The notes under the pieces: model-generated
Databases searched by the model: none
Told to the model about the DNA's origin: nothing
What the model saw: only the letters and a program-made list of their open reading frames with translations
Made by a program: the position numbers and the translations under genes
Shown: in pieces, positions 7,648-38,518 of the stretch
Layout: every line of letters starts with the position of its first letter
Numbering within the stretch: position 1 is the first letter of the stretch
NCBI RefSeq assembly: GCF_900107095.1
Contig: NZ_FNOR01000008.1
Location: 175,138 to 239,137, forward strand
Source of the DNA: Collimonas sp. OK242
Lineage (GTDB): Bacteria > Pseudomonadota > Gammaproteobacteria > Burkholderiales > Burkholderiaceae_D
DNA length: 64,000 nucleotides
Direction: 5' to 3'

Positions 7648-8817
7648 CTACCTGAGCTTCAGCGTTGAAAGCCCAAACAACACCAGCATCATCGAGATAA
7701 TCCAGAAACGCACCACGACCTGCGTTTCTTTCCAGCCTTTTTGTTCATAGTGATGGTGCAAAGGCGCCATCAGCAATACGCGGCGACCAACGCCGAAACG
7801 CTTCTTCGTATACTTGAAATAGATTACCTGCAGCATGACCGATAAAGTTTCGACCACGAAAATACCACCCATGATGAACAGCACGATTTCCTGGCGCACG
7901 ATGACCGCCACGGTGCCCAAGGCGCCGCCCAAAGCCAGCGCGCCGACATCGCCCATGAATACCTGCGCCGGATAGGCGTTGTACCAAAGGAAAGCGAGTC
8001 CGGCGCCGGCCATCGCGCCGCAGAAAATCAACAGTTCGCCGGCCCCGGGAATATGCGGTATCAGCAGGTATTTGGCGAAAGTCACGTTACCGGTGAGATA
8101 GGCGAACAATCCAAGCGCCGCTCCCACCATCACGGTCGGCATGATCGCCAGGCCGTCCAGGCCATCGGTCAGGTTGACTGCGTTGCTGGTGCCGACGATG
8201 ACGAAATAGGTCAAGGCCATGAACCCCCAGACGCCCAGCGGATAACTGACGGTCTTGAAAAACGGTACGATCAGATCGGCCTTCGGCGGCAAATCCAGGC
8301 TGAAACCGGATTCGACCCAGGCCACGAACAAGTCCCAAACCTGGGTATTGTTCGGCGCCGATACCGAGAACGCCAGGTAAATCGCCGCCACTACGCCGAT
8401 CACGGATTGCCAGAAATACTTCTCGCGCGAACGCATGCCGTTCGGATCCTTGTAGACTACCTTGCGGTAATCGTCGACCCAGCCGATGGTGCCGAAACCC
8501 AGAGTGACCACCAGTACGATCCAGACAAAGCGGTTACCCAGGTCGCTCCACAGCAAAGTCGAAATGCCGATTGCAATCAGGATCAGCACGCCGCCCATGG
8601 TCGGCGTGCCGGATTTAATCAAATGCGTTTGCGGACCGTCGGTACGCACCGCTTGCCCGACTTTCAGGCGCGCCAGCATGCGGATCACGCCAGGTCCCGC
8701 GATCAAGCCGATCATCAACGCCGTCAAGGTCGCGAACACGGCGCGAAAGGTGATGAAGTTGAAAACGCGCAGGAAACTGAAATCCTGCTGAAAATTTTGT
8801 GCCAGCCATAGCAGCAT
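7648..8817 (-). CDS. mraY: Phospho-MurNAc-pentapeptide transferase MraY
   Basis: MraY makes lipid I by moving phospho-MurNAc-pentapeptide to undecaprenyl phosphate in the membrane. Family motifs visible are [30 protein letters not shown] and the histidine motif [12 protein letters not shown], spread over about ten hydrophobic helices. I choose the start MLLWLAQNF, one base after the murF stop, giving 389 residues. The alternative start 45 nt upstream would lie inside murF and gives no homologous sequence. Confidence 0.96.
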
Positions 8818-31330: not shown

Positions 31331-31429
31331 AAAAGAAAACCCGAACTGCAGCATCGGGTTTAAATCCACTCCAACGGAGGGGTGGAGGAGACATTGCATC
31401 GGTTGCCGGGAATCAATCCTGCAACCCTT
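31331..31429 (-). ncRNA. Candidate small RNA with CU-rich anti-SD motif and intrinsic terminator
   Basis: A self-contained transcription unit of about 99 nt is visible on the minus strand. After a predicted start near 31429 comes hairpin 1 (GGTTGC pairs GCAACC, 31426-31401), then TCTCCTCC (31391-31384), then a second hairpin (31386-31365) whose loop side is CCCCTCCG. It ends in a terminator: AACCCGA pairs TCGGGTT (31360-31338) followed by TTCTTTT. No open reading frame fits. CU-rich single-stranded motifs of this kind are known in bacterial small RNAs that block ribosome binding sites. Family membership is not recognised. Confidence 0.6.
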
Positions 31430-33594: not shown

Positions 33595-34395
33595 TCAGCC
33601 CAATGCTCTCCGCTGCAGTAAATGGTCGAGGCCGATCTCGGCGCAAGCATCGGCACTGCGCACGACTTCGCCGATGACGATAATGCTGGGGCTGCCGAGG
33701 CCGCTTTCATGCAGCGCTTGCGGCAGCTGATCCAGGCTGGTCAGCAACTGCGCTTGCGTGGCCAGCGTGGCCGACTGGATCACCGCAACCGGCATCGAGC
33801 CGGCCATGCCTGCCTCCAGCAGACTGCGCTGCAACTGCCTGCAGCGCGCCACGCCCATGTACACCACCAGCGTCATGCCGGCCGCCACCAGCGCCTTCCA
33901 GTTCGGCTGCGTGGTCTCGTTCTTGCCATGGCCGGTGACGAAGATCACGCCCTGGCTATGGTCGCGGTGGGTAGCCGCGATGCCGATGCTGGCCGCTGCC
34001 GCCATGCCGCTGGTAATCCCCGGCACCACTTCGACTGTCACGCCTTGCCGCCGCAAGTGGGCGCGCTCTTCGCCGCCGCGGCCGAACAGATAGGGATCGC
34101 CGCCTTTCAGACGGACCACGCAATGACCTGCCTGCGCCTCCACCACCATCAGACGTTCGATGAATTCCTGCGAGGTCGACTGGCAACCGCCGCGCTTGCC
34201 GACATGGATCACGCGTGCGCCATCCTGCGCATGTGCCAGCACTTCGGGATTGACCAGATCGTCCACCAGCAACACATCGGCCTGAGCGATTGCCTTGACC
34301 GCCTTCAGCGTCAGCAAATCGGGATCGCCTGGCCCGGCGCCGACCAGCATCACTTTGCCTGTCTGTTTTACAGTCTGCTTCACAGCTTGTTTCAT
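33595..34395 (-). CDS. cobA: Uroporphyrinogen-III C-methyltransferase (siroheme branch)
   Basis: This SAM-dependent enzyme makes precorrin-2, the precursor of siroheme used by assimilatory nitrite and sulfite reductases. Motifs are VGAGPGDPDLLTLKA near residue 18, RLKGGDPYLFGRGGEE near 100 and VPGITSGMAAAAS near 130. I start at MKQAVKQTV, preceded by AGAGGGGAG; the longer reading starts in the upstream ATPase gene. The 267-residue length excludes a CysG fusion. It is the last gene of the nitrate transporter operon, which fits supply of siroheme for nitrite reductase. Confidence 0.95.
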   Translation of the reverse strand: MKQAVKQTVKQTGKVMLVGAGPGDPDLLTLKAVKAIAQADVLLVDDLVNPEVLAHAQDGARVIHVGKRGGCQSTSQEFIERLMVVEAQAGHCVVRLKGGDPYLFGRGGEERAHLRRQGVTVEVVPGITSGMAAAASIGIAATHRDHSQGVIFVTGHGKNETTQPNWKALVAAGMTLVVYMGVARCRQLQRSLLEAGMAGSMPVAVIQSATLATQAQLLTSLDQLPQALHESGLGSPSIIVIGEVVRSADACAEIGLDHLLQRRALG

Positions 34396-34414: not shown

Positions 34415-35227
34415 TCACGCCGCTTGCGCGACCGGATGGGCTTGCTTGCGATACAGGAACTCCAGCACCGAGGTCCGGTATTCGGCATACAAAGGATCCT
34501 GCGCCAGCGCCACACGTTCACGCGGCCGTGCCAGCCTTACCTGTACGATGTCGCCGATGGTAGCGGCCGGGCCATTGGTCATCATCACGATACGATCCGA
34601 CAACAGCACCGCTTCGTCGACATCGTGGGTCACCATCACTACCGTCGATCCGGTCTTGGCGACGATCTTCAGCAGTTCATCCTGCAGGTGAGCGCGGGTC
34701 AAGGCATCCAGTGCGCCGAACGGTTCGTCCATCAGCAATACTTTCGGCTCCATCGCCAAGGCGCGGGCTATGCCGACCCGTTGTTTCATGCCGCCGGAAA
34801 TTTCATGCGGATGCTTTTGTCCGGCCGCCGTCAATCCCACCATCGCCAACGCCGCTTTGGTGCGTTCCTTCAGGGCGCTTTTGTTTTCGGTAGCGGCAAA
34901 TACCCGTTCCACGCCAAGATAGATATTTTCGTGGCAGGTCAGCCAAGGCAGCAGCGAATGGTTTTGAAACACCACCGCGCGTTCCGGCGACGGTCCGGCA
35001 ATTTCGCGGCCGGCGCAAATCAGCACACCGTCGCTCGGCAACAGCAGGCCGGCGATCAAATTCAGCAGGGTCGATTTGCCGCAACCGGAATGACCGATCA
35101 AGGTCACGAACTCGCCCTTGCGTACAGTCAGGTTGATATCGCGCAGGGCGTGAAACTGGCCCTTGCTGGTATTGAACACCATTTCGGCTTGATGGATATC
35201 GATGAATCTGGCGTCGCGTTGTTCCAT
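34415..35227 (-). CDS. nrtC: Nitrate/sulfonate-type ABC transporter ATP-binding protein
   Basis: This is the ATPase of a nitrate-type ABC importer. The 270-residue protein has Walker [13 protein letters not shown] near residue 47, signature [14 protein letters not shown] and Walker [13 protein letters not shown]. It is a single ATPase domain without the NrtA-like C-terminal half of cyanobacterial NrtC, so it matches NrtD/NasD or SsuB-type subunits; the substrate is inferred from its partners. A GGGGGAA site precedes the chosen ATG. It lies 53 nt after nrtB. Confidence 0.9.
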
Positions 35228-35280
35228 AATTTCCCCCGTCATTACCCCGTCGTTACCCTGTTATTCCGCTTTGCAATGGA

Positions 35281-36204
35281 TCAACTTGAAACCTGTTCGT
35301 AGGTGAACGCCTTCGCCAGCGCCACCAGCATTTGCTCCAGCAGCAAGCCGACCACGCCGATCACCACAATCGCGATGATGATATGCGGCACGTTGAGGTT
35401 GTTCCATTCATCCCAAACCCAGAAGCCGATGCCGACACCGCCGGTCAGCATTTCAGCAGCGACGATCACCAGCCAGGCAGTGCCGATCGCCAGCCGCACC
35501 CCGGTCAGCATGTACGGCAATACCGATGGAAAAAGAATCTTGGTGATGATTTTCCATTCCGACAGGTTCAGCACCCGCGCCACATTCATGTAATCCTGCG
35601 GCACTCTCTGTACGCCAACCGCGGTGTTGATGATCATGGGCCAGATCGAGCAAATGAAGATGGACCAGATCGCCGCCGGATTGGCCGATTTGAACACCAG
35701 CAAACCGATCGGCAGCCACGCCAGCGGCGACACCGGTTTCAGCAAACTGATGATGGGACCGAACATGCTGGACAGGAATTTGAAACGGCCAATCATGAAA
35801 CCCAATGGAATCCCGACCAGCGCCGCCAGGCCAAAACCGACCGCTACGCGTTGCAGCGAAGCCAGGATATTCCAGCCGATGCCCTGGTCGTTGGGACTGG
35901 TCCGGTAGAACGGATCGGCAAACAGTTTCAGCGCCTCCTGCAAGGTCAGCATCGGCGTCGGGAACTGGCTGTTGCTCATCGCAATGATCTGCCAGATCAG
36001 TACCAGGAACGCCAGGCCCAGCAGCGGCGCAATGATTTGCATCAGCCAGGACGGCATGCTGCTGCGGCGATTGGCGATCTTCAATACTGGCCGGGGAGTG
36101 AGGGGAGTGACGATAGCGGCTTCAGCCGCGACGCCTGCCGTAGCACTATCGATTGTTGCCGCCTGACGATTTGCATTTGCCGCTGTGTCCATGATTGCGC
36201 TCAT
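35281..36204 (-). CDS. nrtB: Nitrate-type ABC transporter permease
   Basis: This is the membrane subunit of the nitrate importer. The 307-residue protein has a 55-residue polar N-terminus, then about six membrane segments. The ATPase-contact EAA loop is around DYMNVARVLNLSEWKIITKILFP split near residue 215-235, and AEMLTGGVGIGFWVWDEWNN follows in two steps, typical of NrtB/SsuC. GGGAG lies before the ATG. It is separated from nrtA by 102 bp holding a hairpin and a tandem repeat. Confidence 0.92.
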   Translation of the reverse strand: MSAIMDTAANANRQAATIDSATAGVAAEAAIVTPLTPRPVLKIANRRSSMPSWLMQIIAPLLGLAFLVLIWQIIAMSNSQFPTPMLTLQEALKLFADPFYRTSPNDQGIGWNILASLQRVAVGFGLAALVGIPLGFMIGRFKFLSSMFGPIISLLKPVSPLAWLPIGLLVFKSANPAAIWSIFICSIWPMIINTAVGVQRVPQDYMNVARVLNLSEWKIITKILFPSVLPYMLTGVRLAIGTAWLVIVAAEMLTGGVGIGFWVWDEWNNLNVPHIIIAIVVIGVVGLLLEQMLVALAKAFTYEQVSS

Positions 36205-36237: not shown

Positions 36238-36291
36238 TCTGGATTGTCTGGATTGTCTGGATTGTCTGGATTGTCTGGATTGTCCGGATTG
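36238..36291. repeat. Six-copy 9-bp tandem repeat (TCTGGATTG)
   Basis: TCTGGATTG occurs five times in perfect succession from 36238 to 36282, and a sixth copy (TCCGGATTG) ends at 36291. It lies between the nrtA stop and the nrtB start, so it would be transcribed as CAATCCAGA units in the operon mRNA. Repeats of this size can change copy number by slippage. Confidence 0.97.
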
Positions 36292-36296
36292 ACGGT

Positions 36297-36326
36297 CTTT
36301 CAAGATCTATGCATGGATCTTGAAAG
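36297..36326 (-). other. Perfect 11-bp hairpin at the 3' end of nrtA
   Basis: CTTTCAAGATC (36297-36307) pairs perfectly with GATCTTGAAAG (36316-36326) around an 8-nt loop. The nrtA stop codon lies within it. No T-tract follows on the minus strand, so it is better read as an mRNA-protecting or processing hairpin than a terminator. It would help keep nrtA in excess over nrtB and nrtC. Confidence 0.75.
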
Positions 36327-37581
36327 AGGCGGCATAGGCTTTCGGATTCTTGCCGTCCCACACCGTGCCATCCATCAATTTAGAGGTCCGCAACACGTCT
36401 TTCGGCAGCGGCGTTTTTGTCATCGCAGCCGCGTCTTTGTAGAGATCGATCTGGCTGACAGATTTGGCGACCGCCAGGTAATCCGGATCGGTCTTCAGCA
36501 AACCCCAGCGCCGGTGCTGCGTCATGAACCACATGCCATCCGACAGATAAGGGAAATTCACCAGGCCATCGTTGTAGAACTTCATGTAGTTCGGATCGTC
36601 CCAGGTCTTGCCCAGGCCGTTTTGATAGCGCCCCATGATGCGTTGGTCGATCACATCCTTGCTGGTGTTGACATAGGATTTATCGGCGATCGCTTCGGCC
36701 ATCTTGTTCTTGTTGGCGAGCGAGGCGTCGATCCACTTCCCTGCTTCAAGCACAGCCGCAATCAAGGCACGGCAAGTGTTCGGATTCTTGGCGGCAAAAT
36801 CGGCGGTGGTGCCTAGCACTTTTTCCGGATGATCCTTCCAGATCTCCTGAGTTGTAATCGCGGTAATGCCGACACCGTCGACAATCGCCCGATGGCCCCA
36901 TGGCTCGCCGACGCAGAAACCGTCCATATTGCCGACCCGCATATTGGCCACCATTTGCGGCGGCGGCACCGTAATCACCTTGGCATCCTTGAGCGGATTG
37001 ACGCCGTTGGCGGCCAGCCAGTAATACAACCACATGGCATGCGTACCGGTTGGGAAAGTCTGGGCGAACGTGTATTCGCGTTTGTCGCTGGCCATCAGTT
37101 TGGCGAGCGAAGCGCCATCCACCGCGCCCTTGTCAGCCAATTTCTTGGAAAGTGTGATCGCCTGGCCGTTGTTGTTGAGCCCCATCAGGATCGCCATGTC
37201 TTTTTTCTGGCCGCCGATACCCATCTGCACACCGTAGATCAAACCCGACAACACATGCGCGGCATCCAGCTCGCCGTTGGCCAGTTTGTCGCGCACGCCG
37301 GCCCACGAGGCTTCCTTGCTGAGGACGATCTTGATGCCGTATTTCTTATCGAAGCCGAGCAGCGATGCCATCACCACCGATGCGCAATCCGTCAAGGGAA
37401 TGAAGCCGATCTTGACCTCGGTTTTTTCCGGTTTGTCCGAGCCTGCGGCCCACACTCCGGTGCTAGAAAGTCCCAACATGCCAGCTCCTGCCGCGAGAGT
37501 TGCGGTTTGTAGTATTTGACGGCGCTTGCCGTCGACAAGCGTGTTCGGCATGTCACCCGGCAGTGCATTTTTTGATTCCAT
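36307..37581 (-). CDS. nrtA: Nitrate-type ABC transporter substrate-binding protein
   Basis: This CmpA/NrtA-family binding protein captures nitrate in the periplasm. I start at MESKNALPGD, preceded by GGAG, giving 424 residues. A twin-arginine signal is visible (KRRQILQTATLAAG, cleavage likely after GVWA). The mature part begins with KIGFIPLTDCASVVMASLLG and contains HVLSGLIYGVQMG and VGEPWGHRAIVDG, which resemble nitrate/bicarbonate binders. It has a signal peptide and so is not the cytoplasmic sensor NasS. It is controlled by the leader described at 37609-37742. Confidence 0.92.
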   Translation of the reverse strand: MESKNALPGDMPNTLVDGKRRQILQTATLAAGAGMLGLSSTGVWAAGSDKPEKTEVKIGFIPLTDCASVVMASLLGFDKKYGIKIVLSKEASWAGVRDKLANGELDAAHVLSGLIYGVQMGIGGQKKDMAILMGLNNNGQAITLSKKLADKGAVDGASLAKLMASDKREYTFAQTFPTGTHAMWLYYWLAANGVNPLKDAKVITVPPPQMVANMRVGNMDGFCVGEPWGHRAIVDGVGITAITTQEIWKDHPEKVLGTTADFAAKNPNTCRALIAAVLEAGKWIDASLANKNKMAEAIADKSYVNTSKDVIDQRIMGRYQNGLGKTWDDPNYMKFYNDGLVNFPYLSDGMWFMTQHRRWGLLKTDPDYLAVAKSVSQIDLYKDAAAMTKTPLPKDVLRTSKLMDGTVWDGKNPKAYAASFKIHA

Positions 37582-37608: not shown

Positions 37609-37656
37609 AAAAAAGGCGTCGTCCCGCGATGAACAAGTCATGCGGAAAGACACCTT
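37609..37656 (-). terminator. Leader (attenuator) terminator before nrtA
   Basis: On the minus strand AAGGTGTC (37656-37649) pairs with GACGCCTT (37620-37613, one G-U pair), extended inward by TTCCGC with GCGGGA and ATGA with TCAT, and followed by TTTTTT. The stem of roughly 18 pairs lies 28 nt before the nrtA start codon. Its 5' arm is shared with hairpin P2 of the ANTAR motif, so only one of the two can form. Confidence 0.88.
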
Positions 37657-37718
37657 TGTCTTATGTGGAAAAGACCGCCGTTAGCCGATTCCAACAGCGC
37701 CAGCGTTGGCGCCTGGAA
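37647..37718 (-). promoter_or_regulatory. ANTAR-type two-hairpin antiterminator RNA
   Basis: Two hairpins with six-base loops are visible on the minus strand. P1 has stem GCGCC/GGCGC and loop AACGCT (37707-37702). P2 has stem AAGAC/GTCTT and loop AAAGGT (37657-37652). Both loops carry A at position 1 and G at position 4, the defining feature of ANTAR-protein targets such as those of NasR, EutV and AmiR. P2 uses the 5' arm of the leader terminator, so ANTAR binding would let transcription proceed into nrtA. Confidence 0.85.
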
Positions 37719-37726
37719 GTAGACTA

Positions 37727-37742
37727 TGCAAACCACGTGCCA
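37727..37742 (-). promoter_or_regulatory. Sigma-54 promoter of the nrt operon
   Basis: The minus strand reads TGGCACG-TGGT-TTGCA, a perfect match to the -24/-12 consensus TGGCACG-N4-TTGCW with correct spacing. The predicted start is near 37716, at the first bases of ANTAR hairpin P1, so the transcript opens directly with the antiterminator. Confidence 0.92.
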
Positions 37743-37795: not shown

Positions 37796-37812
37796 CGCAC
37801 CTGCTTTGTGCA
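37796..37812 (-). promoter_or_regulatory. NtrC-type enhancer site
   Basis: The 17-bp sequence TGCAC-AAAGCAG-GTGCG has both NtrC half-sites (TGCAC and GTGC) at the normal 7-bp separation. Its centre is about 88 bp before the predicted sigma-54 start, a workable distance for an enhancer-binding protein. Confidence 0.65.
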
Positions 37813-37897: not shown

Positions 37898-38518
37898 TCA
37901 GCCCAGCAAATCCGCCGCATCGATGATGCGCTGCGCGACCTCGGACAATTTGAGGTTCTTGTCCATCGCCAGCCGGCGCAGCTTTTGATAAGCCTCTTGC
38001 TCGCTCAGCTTGTGATGCTCCATCAGCAAGCCTTTGGCCCGTTCCAGCACCTTGCGCTCGGCCAGCTTCAGCTTGGTGTCGGACAGCTCCGCCAGCAGCT
38101 TCTGCTCTTGCCGGAAGCGCGCCAATGCCACCTCCAGCACCGGCTTGATGCGCGCGGTTTGCAATCCCGCCACGATGTAGGCAGAGACGCCGGCCGCCAT
38201 CGCCGCATCCATGCTGGAGGTTTTGGCATCTTCGGTAAACAGGACGATGGGACGGCGCGCATCGCGGGTCGCCACCACCACATGCTCCAGCACGTCGCGG
38301 GCGTCGGATTCGGCATCGACGATGATCATGTCTGGTTGCAGCTGAGCAATTCTTTCGGGGAGATAGAGGTCGGCAGGAAGCGAGGCGACGATGTTATAGC
38401 CGGCTTCCAGCAAACCGATGCGCAAAGCCTTGCCGCGCGCCGCCTGCGCCTCGAACGCAGGATCGTCGTCGCCTTCGATGGCGACCGGATTGACAACAAC
38501 GATACGTAGACTTTGCAT
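37898..38518 (-). CDS. nasT: ANTAR-domain response regulator (NasT-like)
   Basis: This is an RNA-binding antiterminator. The 206-residue protein has an N-terminal receiver-like domain (about 1-125) and a C-terminal ANTAR domain (about 140-205) with LLMEHHKLSEQEAYQKLRR. The receiver is degenerate: the usual N-terminal acidic pair is N-P in IVVVNP and the conserved lysine near 105 is absent, although an aspartate remains in IIVDAESD. I start at MQSLRIVVVNP. It lies directly upstream of the nrtA leader, its likely target. No nasS gene is adjacent. Confidence 0.9.
   Translation of the reverse strand: MQSLRIVVVNPVAIEGDDDPAFEAQAARGKALRIGLLEAGYNIVASLPADLYLPERIAQLQPDMIIVDAESDARDVLEHVVVATRDARRPIVLFTEDAKTSSMDAAMAAGVSAYIVAGLQTARIKPVLEVALARFRQEQKLLAELSDTKLKLAERKVLERAKGLLMEHHKLSEQEAYQKLRRLAMDKNLKLSEVAQRIIDAADLLG

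Follow-up and report, generated by a model that had tools for sequence, protein, structure and literature searches.

A probable NasT-controlled attenuator with three predicted hexaloop hairpins behind a sigma-54 promoter upstream of nrtABC-cobA in Collimonas sp. OK242

The window (the whole 64-kb stretch of DNA that was analyzed) spans positions 175138-239137 of contig C17 and carries nasT, a leader and the genes nrtA-nrtB-nrtC-cobA, in that order, on its minus strand. NasT (37898..38518, minus strand) is an ANTAR protein of 206 amino acids (PF03861, E 3e-21). The genes downstream of the leader, all on the minus strand, encode a nitrate ABC transporter binding protein with a Tat-type N terminus as judged by eye (nrtA, 36307..37581, PF13379; likely start ATG at 37581), a permease (nrtB, 35281..36204, PF00528), an ATPase (nrtC, 34415..35242, PF00005) and a cobA-like uroporphyrinogen methyltransferase (33595..34395). 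The last gene was taken from an open reading frame with an internal ATG picked by eye as its start, and its name, assigned from the appearance of the sequence, is our assumption. Nitrate as the substrate of NrtA is inferred from its family and the neighboring genes. The genome (4.98 Mb) contained one ANTAR protein at E 0.001, namely, the NasT adjoining the leader, and its closest named relatives among the best 80 of 589 matches listed came from Glaciimonas (83%), Herbaspirillum, Duganella and Massilia. Two further features of the region were the 9-bp unit TCTGGATTG, repeated six times (97% matches) in the nrtA-nrtB intergenic gap at window positions 36238-36291, and a Betaproteobacteria toxic small RNA (RF02278) at window positions 31331-31393 on the minus strand, which scored 56.1 bits against a threshold of 50.

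A perfect sigma-54 promoter had been claimed upstream of nrtA in the first-pass annotation, and both direct reading and a script confirmed it at 37727..37742, read from 37742 to 37727 on the minus strand (TGGCAC-GTGGT-TTGCA, i.e., TGGCACGTGGTTTGCA). The promoter has GG at -24, GC at -12 and the right spacing between them, and it recurs in relatives. The leader promoter was the sole exact match to TGGCAYNNNNNTTGCW in the 64-kb window; because 0.35 exact matches are expected per window by chance and at least one occurred in 29 of 100 shuffles, the promoter word alone is weak evidence. We took the T of the promoter as position -26, which places the predicted +1 at 37716. An NtrC-like enhancer site (GCACAAAGCAGGTGC, 37797..37811, minus strand) agreed with the NtrC consensus GCACC-N5-GGTGC at 9 of 10 positions, and the genome encodes both rpoN and ntrC.

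The earlier proposal that a start at about 37716 runs into a hexaloop hairpin fits the predicted +1. This hairpin, here termed P0 (GGCGCC-AACGCU-GGCGCU, 37696..37713, minus strand), has its A1 at +10 and represents an extra 5′ hexaloop; it had been called P1 before. The hairpin that we designate P1 (GGCU-AACGGC-GGUC, 37673..37686, minus strand) had been overlooked. Its A1 lies at +35, and an outer helix (UUGGA/UUCCA) forms in the fold. The antiterminator hairpin P2 (AAGAC-AAAGGU-GUCUU, 37647..37662, minus strand; A1 at +60) is followed by an intrinsic terminator (37609..37657, minus strand; predicted folds), and the reported overlap of P2 with a terminator that ends in six T (37614-37609, UUUUUU in the RNA) before nrtA was borne out. 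The 5′ arm of the terminator starts with the P2 loop (AAAGGTGTC), 11 of 12 arm positions pair, and 27 nt separate the terminator end from the nrtA ATG. P2 and the terminator were mutually exclusive in the predicted folds, as is the case for ANTAR targets.

Within +1 to +114, four A1/G4 hexaloops with stems of at least 4 bp were counted, and three or more occurred in 1 of 3,000 dinucleotide shuffles. The fourth (ATCGCG at +87) lies within the terminator and was counted as incidental. Three hexaloops thus stand ahead of the terminator, rather than exactly two as in a dual-hexaloop ANTAR target. The middle hairpin and P2 form the A1/G4 pair of such targets, with P0 in addition, and binding of an ANTAR protein to the leader is predicted. 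The two hairpins named in the first-pass annotation (P0 and P2) do carry A1 and G4, but they are probably not the working P1/P2 pair, as judged from their spacing: they lie 50 nt apart, compared to 16 to 36 nt in nearly all relatives, whereas the middle hairpin, at 25 nt from P2, is inside that range.

The leader of the window may be a poor example of the three-hexaloop class. Its P0 has an atypical loop (AACGCU), which an A1-U6 pair closes to a tetraloop in the minimum free energy (MFE) fold (-10.5 versus -9.6 kcal/mol); the inner stem of P1 is weak (-1.3 kcal/mol alone); and a competitor hairpin that joins the 3′ arm of P0 to the P1 loop reaches -12.8 kcal/mol. These three properties are the reason for our caution. 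In folds from +1 to just before P2, the P0 and P1 stems were nevertheless present both in the window leader and in that of a sister species, which keeps the middle loop AACGGC with a better stem. We considered and set aside the idea that P0 and P1 pair with each other in a fixed alternative way; the competitor hairpin exists in the window, but a comparison by eye revealed no apparent recurrence.

Relatives were surveyed with R1, a model built from the aligned P1-to-P2 segments of 49 leaders, with the promoter and P0 excluded. One odd segment of the initial 50, from locus L110, was omitted; it lies in a match to the Rfam family P11. Training segments were chosen by pairing and by a spacing of 16 to 27 nt, so there is circularity in their 99% pairing and in part of the spacing range. 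R1 matched P1-P2 of the window at 37645-37689 (minus strand) with 41.4 bits, this leader being itself one of the 49 training sequences (L018). At E 0.01, R1 had matches in 88 of the 399 genomes searched in the order and, in the class, in 44 of 369. Loci were sampled as 30 from each of three match lists, the best 80 of 589 matches and hand-chosen regions, and they yielded 255 R1 matches at E 0.05 (75 + 76 + 104). From these, 241 were carried on and gave 199 unique leaders; the 14 matches omitted were the weakest of two sets (6 and 7) and a duplicate of the window. Three leaders had less than 150 nt upstream, and 196 were scored. Of these, 32 fell short of a sigma-54 score of 13 or had no terminator; the other 164 unique leaders had both and are not phylogenetically independent.

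A sigma-54-like site (score of at least 13) was present within 160 nt upstream of P1 in 172 of the 196 unique leaders, compared to 169 of 5,086 random windows, and a matching terminator was present in 186. NtrC-like sites with at least 9 of 10 consensus positions occurred upstream of the promoter in 55 of 164 leaders versus 16 of 1,640 shuffles. Taken as sequence patterns, the sigma-54 promoter and the ANTAR leader are supported as a recurring unit. The remark that no spare leader precedes the first hairpin also extended beyond the window, since an A1/G4 hexaloop was located at +5 to +25 in 123 of 164 leaders. The first-pass annotation had further proposed that the operon is gated in series, by nitrogen limitation through sigma-54 and then by the ANTAR protein. 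Recurrence of the predicted unit and the presence of rpoN, ntrC and a single, neighboring ANTAR gene are consistent with such a gate; the gate itself is not new, because serial NtrC/sigma-54 and NasT gating is already known from nalA of Pseudomonas. As far as the available portions of the two reports go, the nalA leader of the nirBD operon in P. aeruginosa and P. putida combines an NtrC/sigma-54 start with a terminator that is released by NasT (PMC12830290, PMC3973561).

In the NasT loci of relatives, P1 usually lies 19 to 25 nt ahead of P2, and in many leaders the 5′ end is occupied by another hairpin. P1 itself occupied this end, starting fewer than 16 nt from position -2, in 51 of the 164 leaders, and 113 had room for another hairpin. 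An extra A1/G4 hexaloop was found in 77 of these 113 long-gap leaders, compared to 4.13 expected from dinucleotide shuffles, while no other two-letter combination at the first and fourth loop positions was seen more than 8 times. A smaller earlier set agrees with this result (28 of 36 versus 1.10 expected). The extra hexaloop was mostly at +8 to +12, and none of the 164 leaders had the A1 of P1 at +26 to +31. In 61 leaders, the A1 of P0 fell at +7 to +13. Their 50 distinct hairpin sequences gave a stem covariation score of 0.746 versus 0.166 for shuffled sequences. Because P0 was chosen for having 4 or more pairs, counts for the inner pairs are partly circular; outside this selection, the two outermost positions formed pairs in 28 and 38 of the 50 sequences. 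When P0 was limited to +5 to +25, the set comprised 70 three-hexaloop, 51 two-hexaloop and 43 other leaders. By this definition, the order had three-hexaloop leaders in 13 of the 24 families represented, and the rest of the class had them in 8 of 21, some P0 calls outside the order being doubtful (e.g., loops AUUGAC, AUGGGC and AGUGCA). Both the P0 and the P1 stem were present in the MFE fold of 53 of the 70 three-hexaloop leaders. The P1-P2 spacing was 16 to 36 nt in all but four of 112 two- or three-hexaloop leaders (outliers, 39 to 62 nt; training range, 16 to 27 nt).

As a control, other sigma-54-like sites in the same loci were inspected after leader copies had been removed by sequence and 15 suspected undetected leaders had been set aside. 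A 5′ A1/G4 hexaloop followed 16 of these 103 sites, which is above the shuffle level, compared to 123 of 164 leaders; at least 9 of the 16 resemble NasT-linked leaders by eye (L070, L076, L090, L092, L095, L111, L121, L135 and L250). An unfiltered version of the control, with a 5′ hexaloop at 51 of 145 sites, was rejected because it included leader copies from overlapping loci. We also rejected a link between P0 and the absence of NasS, as Massilia-type loci possess P0 plus a NasS-like gene. P0 is not essential to the leader family, as 36 of the 113 long-gap leaders lack it.

The reading that we favor, and consider likely, is that the leader is a NasT-controlled transcription attenuator behind an NtrC/sigma-54 promoter, in a variant with three hexaloops. 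Nitrogen limitation would trigger NtrC/sigma-54-dependent transcription from about 37716. P0 would form once the RNA leaves the polymerase and could then bind NasT, followed 25 nt later by P1 and another 25 nt on by P2. NasT bound to P2 would block pairing of the 5′ arm of the terminator, so that nrtABC-cobA is transcribed, while without active NasT the RNA would end at the six U. As far as its accessible text goes, the model of Walshe et al. for EutV has a dimer that takes the recruitment hairpin first and the antitermination hairpin next, with every single hexaloop able to serve as a binding site (PMC8934654). On this basis, P0 could serve as an extra and earliest recruitment site that allows more time for NasT loading; we infer both the direction of the hand-over and the contribution of P0. 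An ntrC mutant of Acidovorax citrulli was described as having lower nasS mRNA and higher nasT mRNA levels (PMC10052978), the outcome to expect if NtrC drives the gene behind the leader and not nasT, assuming this layout for the locus of that strain. The way in which ANTAR proteins work with two hairpins is under debate; the EutV structure paper, in its accessible part, argues for successive rather than simultaneous dimer contacts (PMC8934654). A third hexaloop at a fixed place offers a direct test, as successive loading would have P0 increase readthrough when NasT is scarce.

Alternatively, the RNA could function as a plain two-hexaloop NasT leader in which P0 stabilizes the 5′ end or is a decaying relic with an idle A1/G4 loop. 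The lack of P0 in 36 of the 113 long-gap leaders is in line with this idea, as is the situation in Herbaspirillum (L049, L050 and L057) and a Duganella (L051), where P0 is replaced by a loop of 7 nt or by a closed stem of greater length, i.e., the Herbaspirillum 5′ hairpin differs in loop size. The atypical P0 loop of the window, which can close to a tetraloop, points in the same direction. However, stabilization of the 5′ end would need no A1/G4 letters, and these far exceeded other letter pairs and shuffles in the long gaps (77, at most 8 and 4.13, respectively). We regard a stabilizer or relic as somewhat unlikely. P0 could also act as a brake, with NasT held on P0-P1 and not on P2, which would set the NasT threshold for readthrough. 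Either pair might be usable, since the most frequent P0-P1 spacing of 25 nt (8 of 61) is also the one seen most often between P1 and P2 in leaders with three hexaloops (16 of 61), and only P1-P2 should be productive if, as stated in the part of the EutV report at hand, lengthening of the P1-P2 linker by 20 nt abolishes antitermination (PMC8934654). The P0-P1 spacing varies widely, though, mostly between 25 and 40 nt, as would be expected of a loosely placed loading site more than of a competing pair at a set distance. We consider a brake unlikely. Direct use of P0 and P2 by NasT with a fortuitous middle hairpin, as the earlier pairing implied, is very improbable, because even though the inner stem of the middle hairpin is weak in the window and R1, which favors this hairpin, was trained on pairs 16 to 27 nt apart, a distance of 50 nt is beyond nearly all P1-P2 spacings (save the four outliers), and AACGGC occurs more often than any other P1 loop (62 of 164 leaders) and is conserved on the better stem of the sister species.

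The three-hexaloop attenuator predicted here resembles nalA, in the part of that literature cited above, in its sigma-54/NtrC start followed by a leader terminator that is released by NasT. It differs in the nrtABC-cobA operon that it precedes, in the position of P0 at the very 5′ end (+10) and in that no NasS was found. The Rfam family RF00625 (Pseudomonas sRNA P11), which we take to be NalA, scored 17.6 bits on the window, below its threshold of 70. It was above threshold in 2 of 12 loci, a Pseudomonas sp. BN417 locus (L110) and one of a gammaproteobacterial metagenome-assembled genome (L107), in each case at a sigma-54/NasT-type leader. By our own reading, the P11 consensus contains three loops with A1 and G4, located near +27, +50 and +68, as the window leader has three, with P0 farther from the start than in the window; Rfam draws AACGau and AuaGAA as six-base loops and AAAGGC in a terminator arm. 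Read in this way, a three-loop RNA has already been catalogued as P11, although not under that description. The model of a second family, RF03032 (narK RNA), spans a sigma-54 promoter and two hexaloop sequences. Its match to the window leader (26.3 bits, threshold 43.2) was rejected as proof, because it is below threshold and, with a match that overlaps a livK-like gene of the same genome scoring 29.6, lacks significance at the scale of the genome. narK RNA exceeded the threshold in 5 of 12 loci, again at sigma-54/NasT-type leaders (L107, L110, L113, L118 and L120), whereas the three-hexaloop loci L024, L052, L082, L096 and L228 reached neither the narK RNA nor the P11 threshold and the two-hexaloop loci L036 and L047 stayed below that of narK RNA. 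In one Pseudomonas locus (L110, 10291-10426 and 6925-6996), both families matched sigma-54/ANTAR-type leaders. The comparison indicates that Rfam narK RNA and P11 match leaders of one sigma-54/NasT kind, and the two could belong to one Rfam clan.

Two hexaloop hairpins define the class of dual-hexaloop ANTAR targets, as represented by EutV eutP, NasR nasF and AmiR amiE in the accessible parts of the reports (PMC3369931, PMC8164766, PMC8934654). The window leader shares with them the A1/G4 hexaloops and the overlap of P2 with the terminator, but it has three hexaloops in cis before the terminator. EutX RNA is described as having one additional single hexaloop (PMC8934654). For the nasTS-nasABGHC leader of Paracoccus denitrificans, the available text gives two hairpins (HI and HII) and a NasS partner (PMC5424462); both systems have NasT and leader hairpins between the regulator and the structural genes, yet the window leader has three hairpins and no NasS was found. 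A description of a third ANTAR hexaloop was not encountered in the partly covered literature on extra ANTAR hairpins and on nalA structure. Evidence that a third hexaloop in an ANTAR leader is new is weak, because this coverage was partial and the primary nalA paper, reportedly Romeo 2012, was known by citation only.

In known systems, NasS retains NasT as long as nitrate and nitrite are absent, according to the portion of the report seen (PMC12830290). No NasS partner was recognized in the genome, where NrtA was the sole close NrtA/NasS homologue in a search that could miss a very divergent NasS. A search with NrtA at E 1e-40 returned one match; the next homologue shared 29% identity along a portion of the protein, and the NMT1_2 family gave five weaker matches. 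Since no NasS was found, it is doubtful whether nitrate control runs through such a partner in this genome, as it does in the known NasT systems. Genomes that lack NasS raise the question of how NasT is controlled there. The same search of 39 hand-picked genomes gave one match in 30, two in 6, three in 1 and none in 2. In Massilia-type loci (e.g., L052 and L060 to L064), a homologue without a signal is encoded directly behind nasT without a leader. A Tat test, which serves as a guide only, was applied to 77 NrtA/NasS-like matches. Among the 35 encoded behind a leader of the set, 27 were Tat-like and 8 were not; five of the 8 (L048, L051, L057, L058 and L116) show twin arginines by eye that were lost to the region cut. 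Matches without a leader of the set comprised 26 that were not Tat-like and 16 that were, and for several of the latter the leader of the locus lies outside the set of 164. In the window genome, the sole close NrtA/NasS-type protein bears a Tat signal and is encoded behind the very leader that NasT should control.

These features permit a broader, speculative reading that is, in our estimation, doubtful. The transcription start and the ANTAR switch might be one evolved device, with the promoter placed so that the first RNA bases make the NasT-loading hairpin P0 and NasT is passed from P0 to P1 to P2. In the NasS-less betaproteobacteria that have the device, NrtA from the gated operon, retained before Tat export, might sense nitrate in place of NasS.

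A second leader of the sigma-54/NasT type was found in the same genome by an R1 match (C29:54727-54765) that lies outside the training set, and it has a counterpart in the sister species (L229). This leader (L228:3155-3303, about C29 54654-54802) comprises TGGCACGGCGTTTGCA, followed by P0 (AGGAUC-AACGAA-GAUCCU) at +11, P1 and P2. It precedes a gene for a narK-type transporter (PF07690) and nirB. Since a second three-hexaloop leader thus stands before narK-nirB, ABC transporter-mediated uptake, on the one hand, and uptake plus nitrite reduction, on the other, appear to share one control. Two NasT-type leaders, at 8738 and 11599, were also observed in a locus of Pseudoduganella namucuonensis (L066): a two-hexaloop leader with a weak P1 stem before an NrtA/NasS-like gene and a three-hexaloop leader farther on.
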